Below are positions 7,096-35,032 of a stretch of 46,393 nucleotides of DNA, one piece after another. Position numbers and translations under genes: made by a program. Position 1 is the stretch's first letter; each line of letters begins with the position of its first letter. The stretch comes from Pseudomonas cannabina (GTDB taxonomy: Bacteria; Pseudomonadota; Gammaproteobacteria; Pseudomonadales; Pseudomonadaceae): positions 1-46,393 of the forward strand of contig NZ_FNKU01000004.1 of the NCBI RefSeq assembly GCF_900100365.1, in the 5' to 3' direction. The notes beneath the pieces are model-generated. The model was not told where the DNA came from. It searched no databases and saw nothing but the letters and a program-made list of their open reading frames with translations.

Positions 7096-8031
7096 ATGCA
7101 AGACCTTAGTTTTAGCAATATAGAAAATCATTTGGGACCCGCTAAAGATCGTTTCTTTGGCGATGGTTTCAAACATGTGGAGTATAGTGCTAGACATGTT
7201 AACCTCACCGAAAGTGCAGTGGACGCAAATATAACTATTAGCTACCCAGCCAATTGGTCAAAAAAGAACGGTAGTAGTGAACTAGTACCGCACTTAAGCA
7301 CCATTGACGCGTTGACAATTTCAACTAATTTAATCCAGGATATTCTACTGAATAGCTTCAAAAGCATTGATCACTGCTGGGTGAAAAGAATATCTATCAA
7401 GGCCGGAAATAAACCTGAAGAAGATCTACGTAATATCAATGCGAAAATAACTAAAGAAAGCCAAGGATTGGACTCCCAAGGCGATGCGTATTTAATTTTC
7501 GGTGGCAACGTTGGCACGATGAAAGTTCAGTTGGAGGTCATCATGGCAGCCGCTCACGAAATCGAAACCGTTAAGGATAGTGCCGAAAAAAGTTGTTATT
7601 CTCTACATTTTAAAAATCGCACTCAACTCATCGACGATATTATTTTTTACTCGCCACTCAACGCCATATCAACACTTTTTGTCGCTTATGATAAAGAGCG
7701 CCATTTTTCACCTAGCGGAATCGAGGCTAATTACCCTAACATTATGAACCCCGTAGATGCACTTGTCAGTCACGCACAAATAGCGCAAGCACTTCTTTAT
7801 AAACTCGATGGTTTGACTCGTGGTGAATCAAACACCTTATTGATGAGGAGCTTTAATATTATCGCCGAGAATCCCGCAAAGCGCATAGCGGCGACTCGAT
7901 TACTAGTAACCGAACTAAAGCGTGCTAATATTGTTTCAGTAAAGGATAAAAGCTGGCGAGTAGCGGAAGTGGCTGGATATATGAATGGTATCACCCTTTC
8001 TGGTTCAGTTGCGCATCTATTACCCCTTTAG
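7096..8031 (+). CDS. avrD: avirulence protein D, syringolide biosynthesis enzyme
   Basis: A 311-residue protein recognised as AvrD (start MQDLSFSNIENHLGPAKDRF), at the family's usual length. AvrD is not an exported effector. It directs synthesis of syringolides, acyl glycosides made from a beta-ketoacyl unit and a xylulose-derived unit, which soybean carrying Rpg4 recognises. The start is preceded by AAGGAATGTATCC. A textbook hrp box sits upstream, so expression should be HrpL-dependent. The surrounding DNA is visibly richer in A and T than the transfer genes, which fits acquisition by transfer. Remnants of further operon genes follow at 8141-8372 and then a truncated IS3 element. The IS5-family element ends 60 bp before the promoter. 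Confidence 0.93.
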   Translation: MQDLSFSNIENHLGPAKDRFFGDGFKHVEYSARHVNLTESAVDANITISYPANWSKKNGSSELVPHLSTIDALTISTNLIQDILLNSFKSIDHCWVKRISIKAGNKPEEDLRNINAKITKESQGLDSQGDAYLIFGGNVGTMKVQLEVIMAAAHEIETVKDSAEKSCYSLHFKNRTQLIDDIIFYSPLNAISTLFVAYDKERHFSPSGIEANYPNIMNPVDALVSHAQIAQALLYKLDGLTRGESNTLLMRSFNIIAENPAKRIAATRLLVTELKRANIVSVKDKSWRVAEVAGYMNGITLSGSVAHLLPL

Positions 8032-8372: not shown

Positions 8373-8596
8373 CAAGGAAACCAGACCTTGCGCATGCCAT
8401 ATACATGGAAGTGCTCATCCCAGACTCGCTGGATGTGCTCACCCAGTTCCTGGTCACGCTGCGCACGCGCTGACTGCTGGCTGGGGTCAGCCTGCTGAGC
8501 AGCGTACCGGTAGTACGTCGACGGGGCGATTGGCAACACCTTGCAAATCGGCACGACCCCGTAAGACTGGCGGTTTTCATCAATAAACGTCTTCAT
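8373..8596 (-). pseudogene. IS3-family transposase orfB, N-terminal fragment
   Basis: It starts [20 protein letters not shown] and continues IAPSTYYRYAAQQ and VWDEHFHVYGMRKVW, the region that precedes the DDE catalytic core in IS3-family OrfB proteins. The reading frame leaves the IS sequence at about 8373 and ends after a few foreign codons. It overlaps orfA by 4 bp, the usual arrangement for the programmed -1 frameshift that makes OrfAB. Confidence 0.85.
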
Positions 8597-8916
8597 CGTT
8601 TGAATGGGCGGTCGAGCTCCGCCTGGGCAAAATAGGCTGAGGCCTTACGCAATATCTCGTTAGCTTGACGCAACTGACGGTTCTCACGCTCCAACAGCTT
8701 GACTCGCTCACGTTCGACTGTGCTCAGCCCATCACGCTGGCCGCTGTTGCGCTCAGATTGGCGAACCCACAGCCGTAATGTCTCGGGCGTGCAGCCGATC
8801 TTGGGGGCAATGGCACTGAGGGTGGCCCACTGCGACTCGTACTCAGGAAGGTGTTCGAAAACCATCCTGATGGCCCGCTCACGGACCTCTGGGGAGTACT
8901 TCGGTAGTTTTTTCAT
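8593..8916 (-). CDS. IS3-family transposase orfA
   Basis: A 107-residue OrfA with a helix-turn-helix ([20 protein letters not shown], then [14 protein letters not shown]) and a leucine-zipper-like C-terminal helix ([20 protein letters not shown]). This is the normal IS3-family OrfA layout and length. The gene is intact but its orfB partner is truncated, so the element is inactive. Confidence 0.88.
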
Positions 8917-22361: not shown

Positions 22362-24527
22362 TTACGCGCGCGTGGGTTTGCGACTGAACACGAATTCCAG
22401 CTTGGCTTCGTGATTGAGCTTCAGGGCCGCTTCAAAGGACTTGCCGGTTTTCTTGCTGTGAAAACCCTTCAGCACGCCGGTCTTGCCATTCGTCAGCAGC
22501 GCCTCGATCTGGCCGGGCGACAGCATCTTGCCGCTGACTTCCGGATGGAACTTGAAAGCGCAGGCGCGACAGCCGATCACTCGCGGGGTGACGGCCAGTT
22601 CACCGCCGCACATGGGGCACTGAGCGTTCAGGCTGTCCAATATCGGCTTACCATCACCTTGCACGTTGCCCAGATCGACGTTATGCACCTGGTGGGCAAT
22701 GAAGTCCTCCAGTTCGTCCAGGAACGCGTCTACGGTCAGTTCACCGGCCTCGATCATCTGTTGCTGTTCATGCCAGAGCGCGGTCATGTCCGGCGTGGTG
22801 GCAATCGCTGGCAATGCGGCGATGAACTCCAGCCCCAACTGGGTGGGGATCAGTTTTTTCTTCTCTACCGCGTAAAAACCACGTTCCTGAAGCTTGGCCA
22901 GCATCGCGGCGCGGGTCGCCGGGGTGCCGATGCCGCCGTTCTCGCCTTTCTTGCCCTGGTCGCGGTCGATCAGCAGCTGCTTGATGCGTGGGTCTTGCAC
23001 GTACTTGGCGACCCTCTGCAGGTCCTTGAGCAACGTGGCCTCGGTGTACAGCGGCAAGGGTTTGGTCTTTTCCTTGGCGACCGTAATGCCGTCGCATACC
23101 CCGGCGTCACCGACTTTCAGATCCGCCAGCGCATCGAAGGGACTCGCAACCTCGGCAGCGTCCGATGCGTCTTCGTCTTGCTCGTTCTCTTCAGTGACCT
23201 GCGCCGTCCAGCCGGGCTGCGTCACTTTGGTGGAGCGCGCAACGAAGGTGTGGCCGTTCACGCCAAACTTCACCTCGGCACTGAGGTAACGCTTCTCGGG
23301 CAAAAACTGCGCGACATAGCGTTTGACGATGGCCAAGTACACGGCGCGTTCATCGTCACTCAGCTGGGCAATGTCGATCTTCACTGCCGTGGGGATGATC
23401 GCGGTGTGGGCCGAGACCTTGCTGTCGTCGAAAGCCCGGCTTTTACGTTCCGAATTCACCTCGCTGAACATCCCGGCCAGGTCGGGCAGAGCTTCGCTCA
23501 GCAGGCTTAAGGTCTGCGGAGCCTCGGCAAACTGCTCATCGGACAGGTAACTGCAATCAGACCGGTTGTAGGTAATGGCCTTGTACTTCTCGCGCAGTGC
23601 CTGGGTCAGGGCCAGGGTTTTCTCGGCATCGATGCTGTGGGTCTTGCTCATGTACACCTGAAGGTCGAGCAACGCGAACGGCAAAGGTGCCGCCGTTTGC
23701 TTCTCTTCCACACGCGCCTCGATCACGTCTGCGGGCTTCATTCGGCACGCATCAGCCACTTGAGTGGCATACGCCTCGTCGATGATGCGGTTCTTGTCAT
23801 CGAGCGGGGCATCCGCGGCCACCACGAGGCGGCCCTGCGCACGACTGCTACCAAAGCCCAGGCTTGCCGCAACCGTGTAGTAAAACGCGCTGGCGTGGCT
23901 TTTGTTGGCCAGATAGCGGTTCACGATCAGCCCCAGGATCGGGGTCTGCACGCGGCCTACTGACAACACGCCTTTGACGCCCTTGGCCCTACCGGCCAGG
24001 GTGCAGGCGCGGGTCATGTTGAAGCCGTACAGCTGGTCACCGATGCTGCGGGCCAGAGCTTTCTGAAACAGGCCGTAAAACTCGCTGTTGTCGCGCAGGC
24101 CTTCCAGCGCTTTGCGGGCAGCATTGGCGTTCATGTCGTTGATCAGGATGCGTTTGACCGGCGCGGTGTTGCCGAAATGCACCAGGACCTCGTCGACCAG
24201 CAGCTGGCCTTCGTCGTCCGGATCACCGGCGTGGACGATTTCCGAAGCGCGACCGATCAGCTGCTGGACAATGCTCAGCTGGTCCTTGGTGCGTGCGATG
24301 GGCTGGTATTTGGCCGGGCGCAGTTTCAGGGGCAGGTCGGCCTGAACCCAGTTTTTATAATCGGGGTTGTGCACCTCGGGCGGGGCCAGTTCGAGCAGGT
24401 GGCCCACGCACCAGGTGACGATATCGTTGCTGCCGCACTCGAAATAGCCGTCCTTGCGTATGACGGTGCCCAGCGCTTCGGCAATGACCTGGCCCAGGGC
24501 AGGCTTTTCCGCAATGAATACTCGCAT
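22362..24527 (-). CDS. topB: DNA topoisomerase III
   Basis: A 721-residue type IA topoisomerase, typical of conjugative plasmids (TraE in RP4). The Toprim domain begins MRVFIAEKPALGQVIAEALG and includes HAGDPDDEGQLLVDEVL. SVGRVQTPILGLIVNRY follows, the active-site tyrosine lies in ITYNRSDCSYLSDEQF, and the C-terminus has a CPMCGGELAV...CRACAF zinc finger. It probably decatenates or unwinds transfer intermediates. AAGGAGAACACC precedes the ATG. Intact and of normal length. Confidence 0.95.
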   Translation of the reverse strand: MRVFIAEKPALGQVIAEALGTVIRKDGYFECGSNDIVTWCVGHLLELAPPEVHNPDYKNWVQADLPLKLRPAKYQPIARTKDQLSIVQQLIGRASEIVHAGDPDDEGQLLVDEVLVHFGNTAPVKRILINDMNANAARKALEGLRDNSEFYGLFQKALARSIGDQLYGFNMTRACTLAGRAKGVKGVLSVGRVQTPILGLIVNRYLANKSHASAFYYTVAASLGFGSSRAQGRLVVAADAPLDDKNRIIDEAYATQVADACRMKPADVIEARVEEKQTAAPLPFALLDLQVYMSKTHSIDAEKTLALTQALREKYKAITYNRSDCSYLSDEQFAEAPQTLSLLSEALPDLAGMFSEVNSERKSRAFDDSKVSAHTAIIPTAVKIDIAQLSDDERAVYLAIVKRYVAQFLPEKRYLSAEVKFGVNGHTFVARSTKVTQPGWTAQVTEENEQDEDASDAAEVASPFDALADLKVGDAGVCDGITVAKEKTKPLPLYTEATLLKDLQRVAKYVQDPRIKQLLIDRDQGKKGENGGIGTPATRAAMLAKLQERGFYAVEKKKLIPTQLGLEFIAALPAIATTPDMTALWHEQQQMIEAGELTVDAFLDELEDFIAHQVHNVDLGNVQGDGKPILDSLNAQCPMCGGELAVTPRVIGCRACAFKFHPEVSGKMLSPGQIEALLTNGKTGVLKGFHSKKTGKSFEAALKLNHEAKLEFVFSRKPTRA

Positions 24528-24966: not shown

Positions 24967-26649
24967 CTACATCGTTTCGGGGGTATCGTCAGCCTGCGCA
25001 GGCTCGGGATCCGGCTCGACCTCAACTGGCGGTGCCTTGTCCGTTGCGGCCTTAGCCACTTCGATTGCCTGAGCGTTGGTGTCTCTGGGATTCCAGCGCT
25101 GCCGTTGTTCGGCCTGCATGGGCTTGGTGTCTGCCACTGCCACCTTGGCTTCGACGGTGCGCACCGGTACGGTTAACGCGTCGATTTTGGAAGCATCGCC
25201 ACTCGGCACATCGGGCGTCGGCATACCCGCTCGCTCTTTGAACACGGGTTCTTCGTACCAGAAGATTTTCCGGGCTCGGATGTTGGCAGCGGGCGTCGTC
25301 TTTGTGGCTTCCACAAAAATCAGCTCTTCGCCGTAAGGCAGGGCGCTGACCTCCTGCGGCAACAGCAACGGTCGGGGCTGTTCGCTGTAACTGTCTGTTT
25401 GACCTCGAGCACCGATTTCATGCTTCTGTCTGTTCAACGACTGGTTATGGACGCGCACCGTTGTGTTACCCAGGCGCGTGCTGTACTCCTTGGCCAGCTC
25501 GACATTGCCGGTGCCGTAGACGATTTCGATGTGAAAGGCCTGCATGATGCCGTTGCCAGCCTCCCGGCCATACGTGCGCTCGCTGCGTAGCTGGTCCTTG
25601 CCCTGAAAAATGATGATGTAGCGAAGGCCTGCACCGCGTGTCAGCGCCGGGGCCATTTCCATGATCTCGATACGGCCCATGACCGCGATTTCGTCGATCA
25701 CGAACAACACCTGATACTTGAGTATCAACGTGCCGTCTGCGCAATGACCACCCTGCTCGGGCATCACATCGGTGTTCTGCTGAATGGCCTGAGTGAAGAA
25801 CAGGTTCATCAGCGGGCCGTATTTCTTGATGGCGTTACCGGTCACGCAAAAGTAGATGCTGATCTTCTCCTTACGCAGCTTGGTGAAGTCAATGTCGGTG
25901 TCTGAGACTGCCCAGGCCACCGTTTTCTCGGCATACATGGACAAGGCACCGCGCAGGATATCGACGGTGGTGGACCATCCGCTGCTCTTGTTCTTCGAGG
26001 CCTCGAACACGCCATTGAGCTCTCGAAGGGTTTCCACTGACAGCGCGTTGGGGCCAGTGCTGTGTTGCTCGATGGCTTGCTGCGCCCACACACCGAGCCC
26101 GGTGCCCAGTGACGCCACCTCATAGGCCTGGGGCAAGGTCAGCTTCATACCATTGAGCTTCATGCCTTCCATTTCCATCAGGTACAGCAAGATGGCCGCA
26201 AACACGTTGGCAGCCTTGTTGTACCACTCCTGGTTCTTGGGGTTGTCCGAGACGAACAGCACACCCGCCAGCGTGCGTATCTGCCCCAAGCGGTACAGCG
26301 GGTCGCGGCTGAGTGCACTCAGCGGGTTCCAGCGGTGCGTCTCCAGAAGCTCCGGCGAAAAGCGGTAGACCTTGTGTCCGGCTGCGGCCCGAAAACCTGC
26401 CGTGTCCCTCCAGTTTTCAAATTTGGGGTCGTTCACCACCACCGAATCGGGGTAGCTCAATAGATTGGGGGTAACGACTCCCACCGTTTTGCCGGTGCCA
26501 GGGGGCGCGGCCAGCATGACGAATGTCTGGCCATAGCTGGCTAAAAAGGTGTCCTTGGTGGGGTGCTTGCCAATGAGGATCGCGGGATGCTCCTCGATCC
26601 GTTCTTGGGGATTGTCCGGGCTGATGGGTTTGGATTTAGCTCTGGCCAT
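24967..26649 (-). CDS. virD4: type IV coupling protein, ATPase part (VirD4/TraG), without its membrane segment
   Basis: 560 residues. The Walker A motif PPGTGKTVGVV is at residues 49-59, followed by PNLLSYPDSVVVNDPKFENW and HRWNPLSAL. Walker B is VLFVIDEIAVMG, followed by IIIFQGKDQLRSERTYG. VirD4 proteins link the relaxosome to the secretion channel and normally begin with two transmembrane helices. Here the protein begins MARAKSKPISPDNPQERIEE and has none. The missing piece is at 31869-32234, more than 5 kb upstream, as a separate gene. The start overlaps the lipoprotein stop (TGATG). A truncated second copy of its beginning lies at 28471-28671. Whether the two parts work together is unknown. 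Confidence 0.88.
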   Translation of the reverse strand: MARAKSKPISPDNPQERIEEHPAILIGKHPTKDTFLASYGQTFVMLAAPPGTGKTVGVVTPNLLSYPDSVVVNDPKFENWRDTAGFRAAAGHKVYRFSPELLETHRWNPLSALSRDPLYRLGQIRTLAGVLFVSDNPKNQEWYNKAANVFAAILLYLMEMEGMKLNGMKLTLPQAYEVASLGTGLGVWAQQAIEQHSTGPNALSVETLRELNGVFEASKNKSSGWSTTVDILRGALSMYAEKTVAWAVSDTDIDFTKLRKEKISIYFCVTGNAIKKYGPLMNLFFTQAIQQNTDVMPEQGGHCADGTLILKYQVLFVIDEIAVMGRIEIMEMAPALTRGAGLRYIIIFQGKDQLRSERTYGREAGNGIMQAFHIEIVYGTGNVELAKEYSTRLGNTTVRVHNQSLNRQKHEIGARGQTDSYSEQPRPLLLPQEVSALPYGEELIFVEATKTTPAANIRARKIFWYEEPVFKERAGMPTPDVPSGDASKIDALTVPVRTVEAKVAVADTKPMQAEQRQRWNPRDTNAQAIEVAKAATDKAPPVEVEPDPEPAQADDTPETM

Positions 26650-26900: not shown

Positions 26901-26988
26901 TAGGCACAGCCAAACGCCAGGCGGCTGGTAGCTGACTGTGTGGCGTTGCATGGGGAGGGTCTGAAAATGCGGGTGTATCAGGGGGCGA
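26901..26988 (-). repeat. leader repeat R, copy c
   Basis: About 88 bp shared with 28923-29011 and 31456-31541. It contains the inverted repeat AACGCCA (26913-26919) and TGGCGTT (26941-26947). It fills the gap between the end of an upstream gene and the ribosome site of lipoprotein copy 1, so it is a 5' leader, possibly an attenuator or RNA-processing site. Confidence 0.8.
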
Positions 26989-26997
26989 TGTGGCTAT

Positions 26998-27291
26998 TTA
27001 TTTGCGCAGTCCCCGCAATAATCCGAGTAGCAATTGATCGGCATCCATACCGTGGTTTTCCTTAGCGAACTTACGGCGTGGATCATCTGCTTGGTCCGCA
27101 GCCAGTTGCTCCAGATTGGCCTGGTCTTCGCTGCGCATCTCCTGCGCGTCGCCGCCGGTTGTCAGCAAATACTCCAGCGCTGCGGCTGGAATATCTTCAG
27201 GCTCTGCGAACCGGCATTCCCATTCGCTGCGTATCTCCTGTTCATCGCTTCCGGTGGCGTCACTTTTTGCTAACACTTTTTCGGTGGTCAT
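26998..27291 (-). CDS. chimeric small ORF (GHKL protein tail fragments)
   Basis: 97 residues. The first 12 (MTTEKVLAKSDA) and the upstream 20 bp match the beginning of the ORF at 31556-31822. The rest, TGSDEQEIRSEWEC and then two blocks ending DDPRRKFAKENH, matches the C-terminal tail of the GHKL protein at 29017-31443 (TGSDEQEIRSEWEC, DDPRRKLAKEYH). It looks like the product of recombination that joined the start of one gene to the tail of another. MITE-A copy 3 lies 19 bp before it. It may be expressed, but no independent function can be proposed. Confidence 0.55.
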   Translation of the reverse strand: MTTEKVLAKSDATGSDEQEIRSEWECRFAEPEDIPAAALEYLLTTGGDAQEMRSEDQANLEQLAADQADDPRRKFAKENHGMDADQLLLGLLRGLRK

Positions 27292-27418: not shown

Positions 27419-28435
27419 TTAAAAGGTTTCATAGCGATCTACCCTCAAGCCAGGACTGAACTTGACCAATGCGTCGAGGCGTAAAGCAACTGCCGCCGCC
27501 ATGGCTAGCGCCTCAGACATATCGGGTACCCAGGGGGTGATGTCGTTCAATTCATAAGGTTGACCCGCCATGAAGGTAAGTGAAAAACTTCCCTCTGCGC
27601 CGTCCAAATCAAAGGCCAGATACTCGCCTCCCTTGAACCGGTACGGATGAAGGCAAGCGGTGATCTGTCCCTTGATCGCCAGCCGCGCTTGATTTGAAAT
27701 GTCTTCGATCCACATTTCAACATGCTCTAGATATGAGTTATTGCCATTCATATCCAAGCGGCTCACCTCCATGCTATCTGCACAACAGGATTGCTCGATG
27801 TGTATGGCTTCCCCAATGTGGTCGCCAAAAGCGAGTTCCAGCCACGAATCATTGGCGCTTTCCAGCGTTACGATATCGTGGTCCCTTTTTAAGGCATTGA
27901 TGATCCATCGCGTCCAGGGTTGACACACCTCGCTCACAGGCTGCGCTGCTTTGAGATGGGCCAGCGCTTCATACGCTTCATCCATCAACGGTCGATAACC
28001 TGGCAGGGCATCGAAGCGATAGCCTAAAGGAGCGCCTTCGAACTCAGCGAAACAGGTCAGACTTAACCCTAGCCCGCTTAACGGTCCAGAATACGGTTCA
28101 TTCGTCTCAAAGCCCCCCTCTACCATCCAATCACCCAACGCATCATCATGTTCGGGCGCTGCCACTGGGACGATCTGACACGCCAAGCGCTGCTTTAATG
28201 CGTAGACCTCGCTGTGTAAGAAATCTCGAATTTCGTTTTCGGTTCTTCTGAAAAATTCCTTTTCGCCTGCCTGCATCGCATCCTCTGCCGATAAGCAGGC
28301 TAGTCCCCCTTCTTTGCCGCAAACATAAAAAAACCAGAGTCCAGACGCCGAAAATTCTCCATCTTGAGCAGTGTCGAATTCGTCGGAGGTTCCAACAAAA
28401 ATTGCTGGGTTAGTCGTGTGCTTGATGATTGTCAT
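27419..28435 (-). CDS. hypothetical protein, 338 residues
   Basis: A soluble, acidic protein beginning MTIIKHTTNPAIFVGTSDEF and ending LVKFSPGLRVDRYETF. There is no signal peptide, membrane segment or motif that I recognise. Segments such as SWLELAFGDHIGEAIHIEQS and GGEYLAFDLDGAEGSFSLTF suggest a mixed alpha/beta fold. It is inserted between the truncated virD4 copy and MITE-A copy 3, so it lies in the rearranged zone and is probably cargo not required for transfer. An immunity, toxin or adaptation role is possible but unsupported. Confidence 0.7.
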   Translation of the reverse strand: MTIIKHTTNPAIFVGTSDEFDTAQDGEFSASGLWFFYVCGKEGGLACLSAEDAMQAGEKEFFRRTENEIRDFLHSEVYALKQRLACQIVPVAAPEHDDALGDWMVEGGFETNEPYSGPLSGLGLSLTCFAEFEGAPLGYRFDALPGYRPLMDEAYEALAHLKAAQPVSEVCQPWTRWIINALKRDHDIVTLESANDSWLELAFGDHIGEAIHIEQSCCADSMEVSRLDMNGNNSYLEHVEMWIEDISNQARLAIKGQITACLHPYRFKGGEYLAFDLDGAEGSFSLTFMAGQPYELNDITPWVPDMSEALAMAAAVALRLDALVKFSPGLRVDRYETF

Positions 28436-28470: not shown

Positions 28471-28671
28471 TCACATACGCTGTATGGAATCCTTGATGGG
28501 ATCGTGGACGACAACCGAATCGGGATAACGGAGCAAATTAGGAATCACCACCCCTACGGGCTTGCCGGAACCTGGCGGAGCAGCCACCAGAAACGAATCC
28601 TCCGCGGGGTGCTCCTCGATCCGTGCTTGGGGATTGTCCGGGCTGATGGGTTTCGATTTAGCCTTGCCCAT
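28471..28671 (-). pseudogene. truncated second copy of the virD4 start
   Basis: It begins MGKAKSKPISPDNPQARIEE, the same as the intact ATPase gene at 26649, but has an internal loss of about 20 residues (EEHPA joins EDSFLVAAPP). Walker A has changed to PPGSGKPVGVV (Thr to Pro), and it breaks off after YPDSVVVHDP. It is a non-functional duplicate. With the upstream lipoprotein copy and leader repeat it shows that a block of at least 500 bp was duplicated. Confidence 0.88.
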
Positions 28672-28904
28672 CAGCGGCCCCCTGCTTGACGCTGAAGCGT
28701 CTGTTCGTTGTTGCTTTGCTGCTGAAGATCAGCCTGGAGTTTTTGCAGCTCGATGGACTGCTGCTGGTTGGCCTGTATCTGCTTGAGCGAGGCGCTGATG
28801 ACTTCGAGCTGGTTCGTCTGTCGATCAAGCTGTGACTGAGTCGCGCAGCCGGTCAGTGACAGCATGAACACAGCGGACAGGGTCAGTGTGATTCGAACGT
28901 TCAT
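28671..28904 (-). CDS. coiled-coil lipoprotein, copy 2
   Basis: About 77 residues, MNVRITLTLSAVFMLSLTGC, nearly identical to the copy at 26649-26882 apart from a few changes (for example ITL for TAL, and a GGR end). The lipobox and Gln-rich coiled coil are preserved. It is preceded by leader repeat R copy b and coupled to the truncated virD4 remnant. Because the reading frame is intact it could still be expressed. Confidence 0.75.
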   Translation of the reverse strand: MNVRITLTLSAVFMLSLTGCATQSQLDRQTNQLEVISASLKQIQANQQQSIELQKLQADLQQQSNNEQTLQRQAGGR

Positions 28905-28922: not shown

Positions 28923-29011
28923 TAGGCACAGCCAAACGCCAGGCGGCTGGTAGCTGACTGTGTGGCGTTGCATTGGGGATGGTCTGAAAATGCAGGTGTA
29001 TCAGGCGGCGA
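28923..29011 (-). repeat. leader repeat R, copy b
   Basis: Near-identical to 26901-26988 with a few substitutions and one extra base. It lies between the end of the GHKL gene and lipoprotein copy 2, so copies a and b bracket the GHKL gene as direct repeats. Confidence 0.8.
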
Positions 29012-29016
29012 GGCGG

Positions 29017-31443
29017 CTACTTATTTGCACAGCACTCGCTTGAGTTATCGAGTAGCTGTTGATCGGCATGTCGCCACTTCAAATAGTCCTCGACACGCCA
29101 GAAACCGGCAGCGGCAGCATTGCGTTCAAGCACCCACCAGGTTTCGCCAGGCTCGACCATGACGTGGTATTCCTTAGCTAACTTACGGCGTGGATCGTCC
29201 TGTTCAGCAGCCAATTGCTCCTGATTGAACTGGTCGCTGCGGGCCTGCTCTTCGGCCAGCTCCTCTTCGGTGAAATAGTCATAGGGATCATCATCGAAGT
29301 CCGGCTGTCCGAACTGGCATTCCCATTCGCTGCGTATCTCCTGTTCATCGCTTCCAGTGGCCAGCAAATGACCGAGGTAGTCCAGGGCACCGGCTGGAAT
29401 GTCCGCTAACGGCATGTCCAGAATCCGGGCAACTTCGGGTTTCGCCTTCTCTGTGGCCTCATCAAGCGCCTGACTGATCCGCTCATATTCAGCCTCATCG
29501 GCTTCCCGTTTAGCGCGCAACCGCTCGCTGTTCGCCACCTGATCGGCCTTGGCCTGCTCGATGACCCTGTTCCAGTCGGGCGGCAGTGGGCAGACGCCCT
29601 TATCAATTAACCCGGCATTGATCCTGCTGAGCAAGGCCATGTCCTGCTCCGGCACCGGCGTGCTCACGATCGGATCCGCCGAATCGTCCTCGATGGCGTC
29701 CGATAAGCCGCGCTTCATACGTCCAGTGCCTACACGCCTCACCAGGTGAAGCTCTCCCCAAGCGCTGCCGGTCGCTTTCTTGCCTTCCATTTCCATGCTC
29801 GTGGTGTATTTCATCAACCACTTGTGCATGAACCGCTGACGCTCGGGTGCCATGCGCAGGGAAATGTCATGGAAACGCTGATAGAACGCTTCGTCATGCC
29901 CGCACGCCAGGCTGTCGCCCTGGTGCGCCACCTCGTGCTCGACCAGCCCGAAGATATAGGCCGCCGTTTTCATGGGCTCAGATTTAAGGCGTTGGACGAT
30001 AGTGCGGTTGATGGCCAGGTATGTTTTACCATCCGTCCACGCTTCACTGGTGTTCGATTCACCAAGCAACACCGCCAGGAGGTCTTTGCTATGCCGAACG
30101 GTGCCATCCTTCCAGCGTTCAGCCCCCACACACGCACCGGCATAGTGTTGCAGGCACCAGCGCAACGCTATCCAGGCCCGGCGCGTTTCTTTGTCCAGCG
30201 CCTTTTTCTCATCGACAATCGATGTTCGCTCGACATAAGCCTTCTTGACCGTCGCGAAAGCGGCGCACTGGGGCACCTTCAGGTCTCGGTACCAGTGACT
30301 GACGGCAGGTCTGGCATTGGCAATCACCCGTTCCAGCACATCTTCAAAATCTTCAACGCTATGGCAACCGAAGCGGTCGAGCGTTTGCGGATGCAGTACC
30401 TGGATGATGCGCTGCCCGGCAATGCCTTCGCCCTTGGGTATGTCACTGCCCTTTAAAACAACGGTGTAGGTGCCTTTGTGTTCACGAAACGCCTTGCCAA
30501 TAAAATCCATCAGGGTGATATGCCGTTTGCCTGGCAGAACCGTCATGACTTCTTCATGGCAGAATATTTTGGCCACATCAGCTGCACCGCTGAGCAACGA
30601 CAGTGCTGATCGCGCTCGACGTGCTTCTGTCTTGCGGCGTCCACCCAATTCCCCCGAGACCTTATCAGCCAGCGGACCGAACACCTTGGCGATGGCTTTC
30701 CAGACCGGGCAGGTCTTGCGCAGTATCTCACTACGAGAGACGTTGAGGGCAATCGCCCGCTTGGTCACGATCAGGCCTCCAGCCCCCCAGAGGTGCGAGG
30801 AATCGTGACGGACCAGCACGCCCTGGTTGTAGATCGAAACCGCGCCTTCTTCCTTGGCCCGGTAATAGGCGTATTCGTCTTCAAAGTCCCACTTTTCCGT
30901 TGCAGGATCGCGGGTAATGAGACGGCCATTAAGTTCAACGCTGATGCGGGTGTAGCGCACCAGGTCACGAATCTCCTGGACGGCAGACATCAACTCCAAA
31001 TCGTTGAGCGGTTCGTACCAGATGCCCTCGATGGAGCAACCCGGTGCGCCGTGTTCAAGATCGTCCAGCTCGTAGTTGTAGCCCATCGAGCGGGTGTCAA
31101 CGGTCATCTGCCAATCGTTGGAAGCCCAACGTGTTTTGGCGTGCGCCATGATCTGACCCCGGCCCAGGCGAAACCGGCCATAGGTGGCATCGCCTTCCTG
31201 GTGCGGTGTGCCAAAGCGTCCGAAGTAGCGCAGCACGTCATTGCGGCTGGCAAATCCGCGACCGTCATCAGCGCAGTGAAAGCCCTCTTTGGTCATGGTC
31301 AGGCGCAATGCGGTGGCATCGGCATCTACAGAGTTCATCACCAGCTCGATGATGGCCTTGCCGATCGATCCGGCCTGACTATGGATGATGTGTTGAATGA
31401 TTTCAGGGTCCAGCTCAAAAGGTAGCAGCACGGTACACCTCAT
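29017..31443 (-). CDS. GHKL ATPase with HEVAH zinc-peptidase-like motif
   Basis: 808 residues from MRCTVLLPFELDPEIIQHII. The N-terminal ATPase has the Bergerat-fold boxes: N box IIELVMNSVDADAT (E33, N37, D40), G1 CADDGRGF (residues 58-64), and a lid motif YGRFRLGRGQIMAHAK (88-103). This is the HSP90/MutL/MORC type, not a sensor kinase. Near residues 503-507 is HEVAH, followed by ACGHDEAFYQRFH, the pattern of a zinc metallopeptidase (HExxH plus downstream His). The tail (after about 640) is an acidic, charged helix region whose blocks recur in the chimeric ORF at 26998-27291. It lies inside the split virD4 region, bracketed by leader repeats a and b. A role in host defence, anti-defence or conjugation control is possible; the function is unknown. 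Confidence 0.8.
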   Translation of the reverse strand: MRCTVLLPFELDPEIIQHIIHSQAGSIGKAIIELVMNSVDADATALRLTMTKEGFHCADDGRGFASRNDVLRYFGRFGTPHQEGDATYGRFRLGRGQIMAHAKTRWASNDWQMTVDTRSMGYNYELDDLEHGAPGCSIEGIWYEPLNDLELMSAVQEIRDLVRYTRISVELNGRLITRDPATEKWDFEDEYAYYRAKEEGAVSIYNQGVLVRHDSSHLWGAGGLIVTKRAIALNVSRSEILRKTCPVWKAIAKVFGPLADKVSGELGGRRKTEARRARSALSLLSGAADVAKIFCHEEVMTVLPGKRHITLMDFIGKAFREHKGTYTVVLKGSDIPKGEGIAGQRIIQVLHPQTLDRFGCHSVEDFEDVLERVIANARPAVSHWYRDLKVPQCAAFATVKKAYVERTSIVDEKKALDKETRRAWIALRWCLQHYAGACVGAERWKDGTVRHSKDLLAVLLGESNTSEAWTDGKTYLAINRTIVQRLKSEPMKTAAYIFGLVEHEVAHQGDSLACGHDEAFYQRFHDISLRMAPERQRFMHKWLMKYTTSMEMEGKKATGSAWGELHLVRRVGTGRMKRGLSDAIEDDSADPIVSTPVPEQDMALLSRINAGLIDKGVCPLPPDWNRVIEQAKADQVANSERLRAKREADEAEYERISQALDEATEKAKPEVARILDMPLADIPAGALDYLGHLLATGSDEQEIRSEWECQFGQPDFDDDPYDYFTEEELAEEQARSDQFNQEQLAAEQDDPRRKLAKEYHVMVEPGETWWVLERNAAAAGFWRVEDYLKWRHADQQLLDNSSECCANK

Positions 31444-31455
31444 ATAGGTAAGGCC

Positions 31456-31541
31456 AGGCACAGCCAAACGCCAGGCGGCTGGTAGCTGACTGTGTGGCGT
31501 TGCATGGGGATGTTTGAAAATGCGGATGTATCAGGGGGTGA
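31456..31541 (-). repeat. leader repeat R, copy a
   Basis: The third copy of the 26901-26988 leader, here 13 bp upstream of the GHKL start. The AACGCCA/TGGCGTT inverted repeat is preserved. Copies a, b and c each precede a gene start, so three genes share one 5' leader. Confidence 0.8.
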
Positions 31542-31555
31542 CGCGAGCGTAATGC

Positions 31556-31822
31556 CTACTTGCGGGTCTTACTGGTGCCCTGTGATGGCTTCACCAGTCC
31601 GCACACACGGGCATAGCCTGACTCACTATTGGCGAGCGTGCTCCAGCTCCCCTTGTGGCCGGTGTTCAGCCTCTCGATAAACGCTTTTACCTCATCGTCG
31701 GTTTGCGCAGCCGCGAACTCGATGGTAGTGGTGAAGTTAGCCAAGATGGCTTCTGCTGATGCCTTCGAGAGCGCCAGTACGTCTTTTGCGTCACTTTTTG
31801 CGAGCACTTTTTCGGTGGTCAT
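31556..31822 (-). CDS. chimeric small ORF containing a VirB11 fragment
   Basis: 88 residues. It opens MTTEKVLAKSDA as does the ORF at 26998-27291. A helical, phasin-like stretch (LALSKASAEAILANFTTTIE) follows. Residues about 45-80 (FIERLNTGHKG, then SESGYARVCGLVKPS) copy the VirB11 segment FIEILNTGTKG...SEAGYARVCGLVKQS encoded at 32770-32890. The end (SKTRK and about 30 bp of DNA) repeats the end of the VirD4 membrane fragment at 31858-31890. It is a patchwork of neighbouring genes made by recombination. The VirB11 piece lacks Walker A, so it is not an ATPase. Confidence 0.6.
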   Translation of the reverse strand: MTTEKVLAKSDAKDVLALSKASAEAILANFTTTIEFAAAQTDDEVKAFIERLNTGHKGSWSTLANSESGYARVCGLVKPSQGTSKTRK

Positions 31823-32618: not shown

Positions 32619-33674
32619 TTAGCGTCGTTGACGCTGACCATTGAGCAAGGCCAGCTTGTGTTCAGGTTCGTAATGCACTTCCAGGATGTCCGTCTTTTCC
32701 ATGTACACCACCACATCGAATGAGGTGCGGACCAGGCGCTCGATGTAAGCGTAGTCCAAGCCCTTGCCGACTTCCGACTGCTTTACCAGGCCGCACACAC
32801 GGGCATAGCCTGCTTCACTGTCGTTGGCGTGCGCCGTGGTCACGGTGCCCTTGGTGCCGGTGTTCAGAATCTCGATGAAGTGCCACACCTCGTCTCCAGT
32901 CAGCTCGGCCAGGAACAAGTGGTCGGGCTTCATTCGTAGCGCGCTGGCCACCAGCGCTTTGGGCGTCACCACATCGCTATAAAGCAGATGCACATGGTTG
33001 GGATGAAACGGCAGGGAGTCTTCCAGTGATTCCTGGATCGTGACCATGCGCCGGTGAGCCGGAAAGAGGTCGATCAGCGTCTTGCCGTAGGTGGTCTTAC
33101 CCGACCCTGGCCCGCCGAACACGATGATGTTCTGGAGATGGGCGACGGCAGTTTCCATGAACGAGTCCCAGTCGCCGGCAGCGTGAACGTCCTTCATGTC
33201 GCACTGCCAGGGCTTGAGGGTCACCACCGGTGAAGCGATGGCCTTGGCCCGGTCATAGCGGCCACTGTTGACGTAATCCTTATGGGTGAAGCGCAGCAAG
33301 GAGGGTTTGCGAAACGTCATCGACAGGGTGCCTTCCTCGCACGCCGGTGCCATGACGATCTGGCCCCGCTCCCCGCCAGGCAATTTAACGGTGTGAATCG
33401 GTGAATGAGGGGCCAGCACGCGGGATCTCAGCGCACAGAGTGCATTGGCCAGCCGCCAACACAGGCTGTAGGTGAGCCAGGGCGCGTCCTCGCGCACCCA
33501 GCCGTCTGGACCGTCTACCCAGATTTCAAAGGGCCGGTTAATGGCCACGTCCTGGGTGCCAGGGCGATTCAGGCGCTCGGTGACGCCTGCCTGGGCGAGA
33601 AAGTCCAGGACCAGCGTGTCTTCGGTCAGCCCTTGTTCCTCAGGGTCTTGCGAGTGATCTTGTTCTTGCGTCAT
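32619..33674 (-). CDS. virB11: VirB11 secretion ATPase
   Basis: 351 residues. Walker A GGPGSGKTT lies at residues 187-195. LAELTGDEVWHFIEILNTG with KGTVTTAHANDSEAGYAR corresponds to the Walker B and His-box region of VirB11. The N-terminal domain (DVAINRPFEIWVDGPDGWV) is normal for the family. VirB11 is a hexameric ATPase on the inner face of the membrane that works with VirB4 and VirD4 in pilus formation and DNA transfer. It lies 9 bp after virB10. Part of its sequence is copied in the ORF at 31556-31822. Confidence 0.95.
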   Translation of the reverse strand: MTQEQDHSQDPEEQGLTEDTLVLDFLAQAGVTERLNRPGTQDVAINRPFEIWVDGPDGWVREDAPWLTYSLCWRLANALCALRSRVLAPHSPIHTVKLPGGERGQIVMAPACEEGTLSMTFRKPSLLRFTHKDYVNSGRYDRAKAIASPVVTLKPWQCDMKDVHAAGDWDSFMETAVAHLQNIIVFGGPGSGKTTYGKTLIDLFPAHRRMVTIQESLEDSLPFHPNHVHLLYSDVVTPKALVASALRMKPDHLFLAELTGDEVWHFIEILNTGTKGTVTTAHANDSEAGYARVCGLVKQSEVGKGLDYAYIERLVRTSFDVVVYMEKTDILEVHYEPEHKLALLNGQRQRR

Positions 33675-33683
33675 GAATACTCC

Positions 33684-35032
33684 TTAGCGGTTCTCGAAAA
33701 CCGATGAAAAGTCGATGTCGCGGGCCACGATGACGGTGATGACCGTGCCCGGCAGCAGGTGCGCGGTGTCCGGGATGTTGATGGTGCTGTCCAGCGCCTT
33801 GTTGGCCATGCTCTCCACGTTCTGCTCGCTGTTGTTCACCGTGTAACCACCAGACCCTGAGCTTTTCTGCGTGGTGTTGGACGCGGCCTGAAGCGCGTCC
33901 TGGATGAACGACAACATCACTGCACCGCCAAAGCGCTGCATGTAGTGGCGATTGATCCAGGCTTCGGTCCCGCTGGCTCCCATGGGGCCTGCACCGAGGC
34001 TGTCAATCTTGGCCCGCACACCCGATTGGGTTTCGATTTCGGTCCAGGTGGTGAACACGCTGGTTTCGCCTGGCCCAACCTCAACCGTCTGTTCACCGGT
34101 GAGCTTGTCACCCGCCGCCGCAATCACCGTGGAGCCATCGGCGGAATACAGCGGATCGGTCAGACGACAATCCACCAGCCCTGGGTGGGTGCTGATGATT
34201 TCGTTGTACAGCGCGCAGCGCGTGTAGGTGTTGTGGCTGACCAGGTACTTGCGGTTCGGTGCCAGGTACGCCTTGGCCGGGGCAAAGGTGGTGCCGCCCA
34301 GGTCACTCAGACTGCTGCGTTTTCTGGAGGGCGATTCCCCCCCAAACCGCCGCTCGATCCGCCCTGAACGTCAGCCAGCAATGAAGGCGGCAGGGAAGAC
34401 TGATCGTTGGTCGGCTGTTGCGGCTGAGTATTCGCAGCGCCGGTGCCCAACGCATCTTCCGAGGTGACGAACATCGCAGCCCCCAGTTTGCGTTGCCGAG
34501 GGGTCTCCACGACCGGTGTGTTCTGCCCGGGCGGTGGTGGCACACTGGCGGCATGTCCCTGATCGATCGATCCGCGATTGGCATCCCTTTTATCCTTTTC
34601 CTCCTTCGCCAATCGGTCTCTTTCAGCGCGGGCTCTCCTGTCCTCTTCGGCTTTGTCAGCGGCCAGTTTGGCTTCCCGTGCCTTTTTCATGCTGTCGTCG
34701 CTAACCTGATTGACGTCCAGGGTCGCGTCCTTCTTGACGTGGGTTTCATCGACCTCGGAGCCGGTGGTTTTCATCTGGGAAATGGTGAAGTACCAGAGCC
34801 CTACGCCAGCCAGCAGCCCCACCAACCCCAGCGCGGCCAGGCTCAGGTAAAGCGTCTTCCTGTTTTGGGTATCGCCTGTGCGTTTGGTCCGCACGTCAAA
34901 GGCCCCACGGGCCTGGGTGCTGGCAGGCTCGGAGGCCGTTGCCTGTTCCGGGGTCGCTGCGGGTTCGGGTGGCCCGATGCTGTCCGGCCCTGGGGTGTTC
35001 GCCGGGGCTTGGTCGTTGTCATTGTTCTGCAT
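33684..35032 (-). CDS. virB10: VirB10 channel protein, frame broken by one base
   Basis: VirB10 spans both membranes and forms the core of the type IV channel. The first frame (35032 to about 34307) has a cytoplasmic tail, a transmembrane helix (LSLAALGLVGLLAGVGLWYF) and a charged, Pro-rich linker. The second resumes with SPSRKRSSLSDLGGTTFAPA and includes AYLAPNRKYLVSHNTYTRCA, the VirB10 antenna region HYMQRFGGAVMLSFIQDAL, and LPGTVITVIVARDIDFSSVF. The break is at a run of seven C (34337-34343; G on the coding strand). One more base joins the frames to exactly 450 codons. As with repA, this may be a sequencing error in a homopolymer or real damage. Confidence 0.88.

Follow-up and report, generated by a model that had tools for sequence, protein, structure and literature searches.

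The subject of this report is a gene on the minus strand of a 46,393-nucleotide stretch of Pseudomonas cannabina DNA (contig NZ_FNKU01000004.1; hereafter the window). Its product, P0001, was predicted with good support to carry an Hsp90-like ATPase followed by a zincin-like metallopeptidase domain. Both active sites were conserved across the family, which was found in a context of conjugative elements and topB, and the pairing of the two domains was conserved across many mobile DNA elements. At a probability of roughly 0.4, P0001 is read here as an ATP-driven protease of conjugative elements that acts on DNA-held proteins. No description of an ATPase-zincin pairing was found in the open-licence literature searched.

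Domain architecture of P0001

The open reading frame (ORF) begins with an ATG at position 31443 and encodes 808 amino acids; a TTG at 31467 is a possible alternative start that would give 816. The features of the gene are as follows.

29017..31443 (-), Hsp90-like ATPase/zincin gene (P0001), from the ORF, homologues and substitution ratios
30904..31443 (-), N domain, GHKL ATPase, residues 1-180, limits approximate
31324..31347 (-), N box (E..MN..D), residues 33-40; E33, N37 and D40 invariant in 39/39 alignment rows
31255..31269 (-), G1 box (DDGRG), residues 59-63; D59, G61 and G63 invariant in the alignment
31153..31164 (-), G2 box (GRGQ), residues 94-97; G94, R95 and Q97 invariant in the alignment
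30199..30903 (-), Hsp90-like middle region, residues 181-415, from model matches to Hsp90 N-M, limits approximate
30733..30747 (-), LNVSR motif, residues 233-237, also present in the HtpG of the same genome (LNVSREIL)
29764..30081 (-), predicted zincin (minigluzincin-like) domain, residues ~455-560, from models and a profile against PDB
29923..29937 (-), HEVAH, residues 503-507, from the family pattern and alignment
29896-29898 (-), H516, candidate third ligand
29017..29646 (-), charged, faster-evolving C-terminal tail, residues 600-808, absent or different in distant relatives

An original prediction, made from the letters of the DNA, had described a full Bergerat ATP-binding site, and this was borne out. 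The residues E33/N37/D40, D59/G61/G63 and G94-R95-G96-Q97 were all present, a Bergerat fold was predicted, and HATPase_c_3 (PF13589) matched residues 36-117 of the 816-residue TTG frame at 29.3 bits against a cut-off of 25, which places P0001 in the GHKL ATPase superfamily. No other family was returned by the Pfam scan of the full protein. In NCBIfam, weak matches to sacsin-N, BbrUII and MutL all fell below the cut-off, and a PDB search with the single P0001 sequence gave none at E <= 1. Homologues among the matches listed were labelled ‘ATP-binding protein’, ‘hypothetical protein’ and in some cases ‘MutL’. MutL was rejected as a name for P0001, the match being confined to the N and G1 region; moreover, by comparison with MutL/PMS2 and MORC, no nuclease domain was seen in P0001, and its middle region and C-terminus lacked a sequence match. 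Prokaryotic MORC-like GHKL proteins have been described in restriction systems (PMC2292703), in a text where the words ‘protease’ and ‘peptidase’ were not found.

Following the ATPase, a middle domain with a catalytic-loop arginine was recognised, as in Hsp90. An LNxSR-like motif was present in 239 of 242 alignment rows, and R237 was invariant in the 39-row alignment. P0001 thus resembles Hsp90, HtpG and TRAP1 in its N-domain ATPase, predicted middle-domain fold and LNVSR arginine motif, but has a metallopeptidase-like domain where the Hsp90 C-domain would sit. The Hsp90 family PF00183 gave no match at E <= 1, PF13589 alone being found. Some full-length Hsp90 structural alignments extended into the zincin region at ~8-12 Å rmsd, and a sequence match was absent there. 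In the PDB fold search, the lists were filled by the Hsp90 part and no zincin row appeared among the matches listed.

The HEVAH sequence at residues 503-507 was followed by further His residues at 516 and 525, as originally described. HExxH was present in 121/121 close proteins (query counted) from the first database search, in which 7994 scored candidates gave 333 proteins and the best 120 were used. A second search, with distant plasmid relatives as queries, gave 801 from 8000 candidates, and again the best 120 were used. After two non-family members were left out of the pooled 250, the extended pattern HExxH-x(5-18)-H-xxx-F was found in 248/248 proteins; since the proteins had been collected by similarity over their whole length, the count is not an entirely independent test. 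Eight distant plasmid proteins were therefore of interest as having been chosen from a tblastn list with the motif unseen: all eight carried it, and in five of them the tblastn match had stopped short of residue 503. A chance origin of HExxH was rejected on the 248/248 count. The fourth His (525) was less constant, being H in 225 proteins, E in 12 and another residue in 11.

In both structure models, three strands were followed by a helix ending in HExxH, a loop and a second helix. This predicted placement, at a helix end after a small beta sheet, is as expected for a zincin, as is the candidate third ligand downstream of HExxH, present in every protein by pattern. When a profile of 20 domain sequences was compared with 177,635 PDB sequences (E <= 10), four matches were obtained: the S. 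pombe WLM protease (5jig) at 0.065, Spartan at 0.39 and 0.43, and proabylysin, which we take to be a minigluzincin, at 0.41. In the three alignments displayed, HExxH and the downstream His were in register, each match being weak alone. P0001 therefore shares HExxH, the spacer, the third His and F with the Spartan (SPRTN) and Wss1 WLM proteases, but the sequence score was not significant, and the SprT of the same genome was unlinked by profile. To our knowledge, Spartan and Wss1 lack a GHKL motor. No Pfam SprT/Spartan or WLM match was obtained for full P0001. Because the SprT and M48 comparisons gave nothing specific and each PDB match was weak, the domain was named an SprT/WLM-like minigluzincin, a member of neither family. 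The original pairing of an ATPase with a metallopeptidase thus survives in qualified form: no examined homologue lacked the motif and HExxH is predicted at a helix end after a beta sheet, the peptidase itself remaining a candidate.

Selection, distribution and genomic settings

The P0001 family is under purifying selection. Against five P. syringae-group copies, the ratio of nonsynonymous to synonymous substitution rates (dN/dS) was 0.064-0.228 for the whole gene, 0.054-0.074 for residues 1-400 and 0.071-0.415 for the tail (600-808). For residues 455-560 it was 0.063-0.125 in four pairs, the fifth pair being without any change. Against a 63% identical relative (L038; loci are numbered with L), the two domains gave 0.078 and 0.111, which are rough values as dS exceeded 1.4.

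A second full copy, 96% identical, lies on another contig of the same genome. The best plasmid matches were P. syringae-group plasmids, presumably of the pPT23A type, given that excerpts of PMC3191145 and PMC5424326 describe pPsv48B and others among them in this way. Excerpts of PMC9791958 and PMC5424326, which cover such plasmids, contain no mention of this gene. The gene is accessory: among 199 Pseudomonas genomes (this one included), 14 gave a match, four of them full-length (one in two pieces) and ten short and N-terminal. A genome scan yielded 46 loci in Pseudomonas, Burkholderiaceae, Bordetella, Xanthomonas, Erwinia, Brenneria and Pectobacterium, among others, with further hosts in Tenebrionibacter, Acidithiobacillus, Shewanella, Sulfurimonas and Paenibacillus. 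The phage collection contained two partial matches only, both in records named Acinetobacter phage MD-2021a.

In three related Pseudomonas elements (L066:9995-11577, L067:10004-12399 and L068:10004-12399), the gene consists of two overlapping ORFs with an identical 347-codon first frame. This may reflect a shared frame break or a programmed shift, and a frame break is as likely as a split gene. On an Acinetobacter plasmid, the ATPase-zincin gene is immediately preceded by a separate M48-type metallopeptidase gene (L006:7078-7818), which was rejected as a split form of the domain pair, the adjoining ATPase having its own zincin motif.

Four settings recurred: MPF_T plasmids; replication modules of integrative and conjugative elements (ICEs) of the PFGI-1/PFL_4669 type (ParA, ParB, STY4528, AcaB); ICE secretion clusters (TraC_PFL_4706, TIGR03752, TIGR03755); and large plasmids in which the 6-8 kb viewed contained no annotated transfer gene. 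The topoisomerase gene topB was present in 23/77 loci, not all of them independent, some being on one plasmid or contig. In the 22 topB loci with a family ORF longer than 900 nt, topB was on the same strand in all 22 and adjacent in 11. It lay upstream at 10 nt in L002 and L040-L042 and at 275 nt in Paenibacillus agilis (L049), and 217-356 nt downstream in L043, L045, L056, L067, L068 and L077. A dedicated partner gene was rejected: none was as widespread as topB, and ssb came next, in mixed contexts.

Within 3 kb of the gene in 46 chosen loci there were 162 neighbouring genes, of which 150 were scanned (the L001 and L007 loci and four short ORFs were left out). Among the best 25 of 59 families were topoisomerase (5), SSB (3), DUF1525 (3), cytosine methylase (3), ArdcN (2) and TraU (2); the commonest of those listed belong to DNA metabolism, methylases and conjugation. 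The two ArdcN neighbours are in two loci, probably L044 and L047. PADLOC models on the same neighbours (best 25 of 85 families) included DpdF in five and many methyltransferase models.

Seventeen loci came from IMG/VR, on contigs of up to 479 kb, with L021 and L031 on one contig. An ORF of an NAD+ DNA ligase cluster was found in 8/17 and an RNase H-like ORF, presumably RNase H by its sequence, in 7/17. In 13 IMG/VR records, neither a large terminase (PF03237, PF17289) nor a coupling protein (PF02534) was found, while the controls were positive; the search for the capsid family PF07068, whose control was silent, is uninformative. Lacking a large terminase in these 13 records, phage residence of the copies is not established. 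In four records without a terminase hit (L019, L020, L023 and L025), the gene lies between the RNase H-like ORF and the NAD+ DNA ligase cluster ORF.

Proposed function and its rivals

In the proposed mechanism, an Hsp90-type N-M clamp, presumably a dimer closing on ATP, would take the place of an AAA+ ring. The SprT/WLM-like minigluzincin C-terminal to the clamp would be the protease part, with putative metal binding and catalysis. By binding and releasing ATP, the clamp would hold a protein substrate, expose it and present it to the HExxH site. The likeliest substrates, speculatively, would be proteins held on the DNA of the element as it is transferred, established or replicated; candidates are adducts of relaxase or topoisomerase III, SSB and recipient proteins. 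That P0001 is an active enzyme is probable. That it acts on proteins bound to DNA is a reasoned guess held at a little below even odds, with counter-defence next. In its boldest form, which is doubtful, the proposal would make P0001 a member of the first class of ATP-driven proteases to use an Hsp90-type N-M clamp in place of an AAA+ ring. Carried from host to host by conjugative plasmids and ICEs, such proteases would clear element DNA, on entry or during replication, of proteins bound to it covalently or tightly, as a mobile-element counterpart of Spartan.

The energy-dependent proteases known to us use AAA+ motors, and we know of no Hsp90-type clamp that carries a protease. If the proposal is true, this conserved and widespread fusion would be a second way of coupling ATP to proteolysis, and conjugative elements could have a tool of their own for handling the covalent protein-DNA intermediates of relaxases and TopB.

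Several observations weigh against the protease proposal. No activity is known. Sequence similarity to HtpG was limited to the N domain, and Foldseek TM-scores were 0.16-0.51 in the rows listed. The SprT/WLM assignment was weak (E 0.065-0.43), and the profile comparison with the SprT of the same genome was negative, no better than with the M48 protein. When the loci were sorted by eye into about seven arrangements (with no matched control gene), topB was directly adjacent in just three, and it is often carried by conjugative elements anyway. Plasmid pPMA4326A was typed as conjugative by MOB-suite yet is without the gene. Lastly, in an excerpt of PMC7213743, the antirestriction of ArdC works without its protease activity.

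The nearest alternative, which we regard as unlikely although not greatly so, is counter-defence, with P0001 as a plasmid analogue of phage RIIA or ArdC that cleaves or blocks a recipient defence protein after transfer. RIIA, like P0001, has a GHKL N domain and a variable C-terminal part, and RIIA-type proteins were among the top Foldseek matches against viral models (E 3e-7). An excerpt of PMC7824862 places rIIA orthologues, with GHKL and variable C-terminal domains, among phage counter-defence factors. The sporadic, mobile distribution, with full-length genes in four of 199 Pseudomonas genomes, fits this reading, as do the ArdcN (2/150), cytosine methylase (3/150) and other methyltransferase neighbours. 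However, PHROGs at E <= 0.1 returned just phrog_6203 (function unassigned) and no family named RIIA, and the two partial phage matches, the missing terminase in the 13 IMG/VR records tested and the topoisomerase as commonest neighbour among the families listed also count against it. ArdC is likewise plasmid-borne with a Spartan-like metalloprotease domain, but has a single-stranded-DNA-binding N domain instead of GHKL and Glu as its third ligand (excerpt of PMC7213743); no ArdcN (PF08401) match was obtained in P0001 at E <= 1.

Less probable again is a role as chaperone or assembly factor, in which the Hsp90-like clamp would fold or assemble transfer proteins (type IV secretion system, relaxosome, TopB) and the zincin would be structural or regulatory and not a general protease. 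It would suit the predicted Hsp90-like N-M fold and the position of the gene between virB11 and virD4 in pPT23A-type plasmids and inside an ICE secretion cluster, and it has a precedent in ArdC, whose protease site was dispensable for the function tested (PMC7213743, excerpt). Against this, the Glu and three His residues kept in 248/248 proteins point to catalysis, and the gene accompanies transfer systems that are unrelated to one another and is also found where no transfer genes are annotated.

The phage-defence role raised by the original prediction, in which a GHKL sensor would trigger the protease in defence or abortive infection, is very unlikely: PADLOC gave P0001 a sole match to its ATPase part (REase_II, a type II restriction model, E 0.067), no defence partner was recognised among the gene clusters shared by at least five loci, most of these clusters being unannotated, the gene is often enclosed by replication or transfer modules, and the commonest neighbours among the families listed are those of DNA metabolism, methylation and conjugation, although the DpdF and methyltransferase models nearby would favour it, as would the existence of GHKL-effector defence proteins such as the Shedu protein VcSduA. 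According to an excerpt of PMC12137116, VcSduA joins a GHKL ATPase to a catalytic effector, as P0001 would, but this effector is a nuclease, which the GHKL domain is proposed to control, and the system is one of phage defence.

The locus in the window

The gene is located inside the transfer region, as originally stated. Reading from virB11, two small ORFs and an 88-aa ORF come first, then a leader repeat and the ATPase gene. Next are a second leader repeat with a lipoprotein gene, the virD4 5' fragment, a 338-aa ORF and a 97-aa piece similar to the tail of the ATPase, and last come a third leader repeat, the other lipoprotein gene, virD4 and topB.

32619..33674 (-), virB11, from a T2SSE match and alignment to annotated virB11
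31456..31509 (-), leader repeat (copy 1), immediately preceding the ATPase gene
28924..28977 (-), leader repeat (copy 2), preceding the first lipoprotein gene
28671..28904 (-), first lipoprotein gene (copy 1), sharing 93% identity with copy 2
28471..28671 (-), virD4 5' remnant (duplication relic) of 66 codons, a T4SS-DNA_transf fragment
27419..28435 (-), 338-aa cargo ORF, also in pPMA4326A
26998..27291 (-), 97-aa remnant similar to residues 695-762 in the tail of the ATPase
~26902..26955 (-), leader repeat (copy 3), preceding the second lipoprotein gene (copy 2), limits by eye
24967..26649 (-), intact virD4 coupling protein gene, by Pfam
22362..24527 (-), topB (type IA topoisomerase), aligned with the type IA topoisomerase annotated in pPla107-1

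The direct leader repeats (54 nt) reported on both sides of the gene were confirmed, copies 1 and 2 being 98% identical, and a third copy was present. The accompanying claim that the gene sits where virD4 is split did not hold: virD4 is complete, and the 66-codon fragment lies beyond the duplicated lipoprotein gene. The locus was compared with eleven further loci, L037 being too short for this comparison. In L001, L007, L032 and L034, the ATPase gene lies between virB11 with the small ORFs and a single virD4, with no virD4 fragment. In L033, L035, L036 and L079, the ATPase gene is accompanied by a second lipoprotein gene and a fragment of virD4. Conversely, pPMA4326A (L014) has the virD4 fragment and the 338-aa ORF, the ATPase being absent except for a tail-like remnant. 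Insertion of the ATPase gene into virD4 was rejected by this comparison. Recombination between the repeated leader and lipoprotein sequences appears to have shaped this spot, which has the look of a cargo site, and the ‘split virD4’ is part of that recombination history, not of the ATPase gene.

In pPsv48B (L013), the gene is in the same place, from the virB11 side to a single virD4, but in two frames. As this plasmid transfers (PMC9791958, excerpt), it was considered as proof of dispensability and rejected; it is uninformative on this point because the first frame (543 codons) still covers the ATPase and the metal motif.

The 338-aa ORF (27419-28435) had no Pfam match and was 99% identical in pPMA4326A, at the same cargo spot. 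The 88-aa ORF (31556-31822), present in several related plasmids, is a small chimera, one stretch of which shares 60% identity with VirB11 residues 254-301. virB10 (33684-35032) is present as two ORFs, 34307-35032 and 33684-34175; since pPla107-1 has a single 458-aa ORF, the frame looks interrupted, by a defect or a sequencing error. Elsewhere in the window, an AvrD family gene (Pfam) was found at 7096-8031 and an ALIL pseudoknot (Rfam RF01497), a cis-regulatory element linked to insertion-sequence frameshifting, at 8522-8638.
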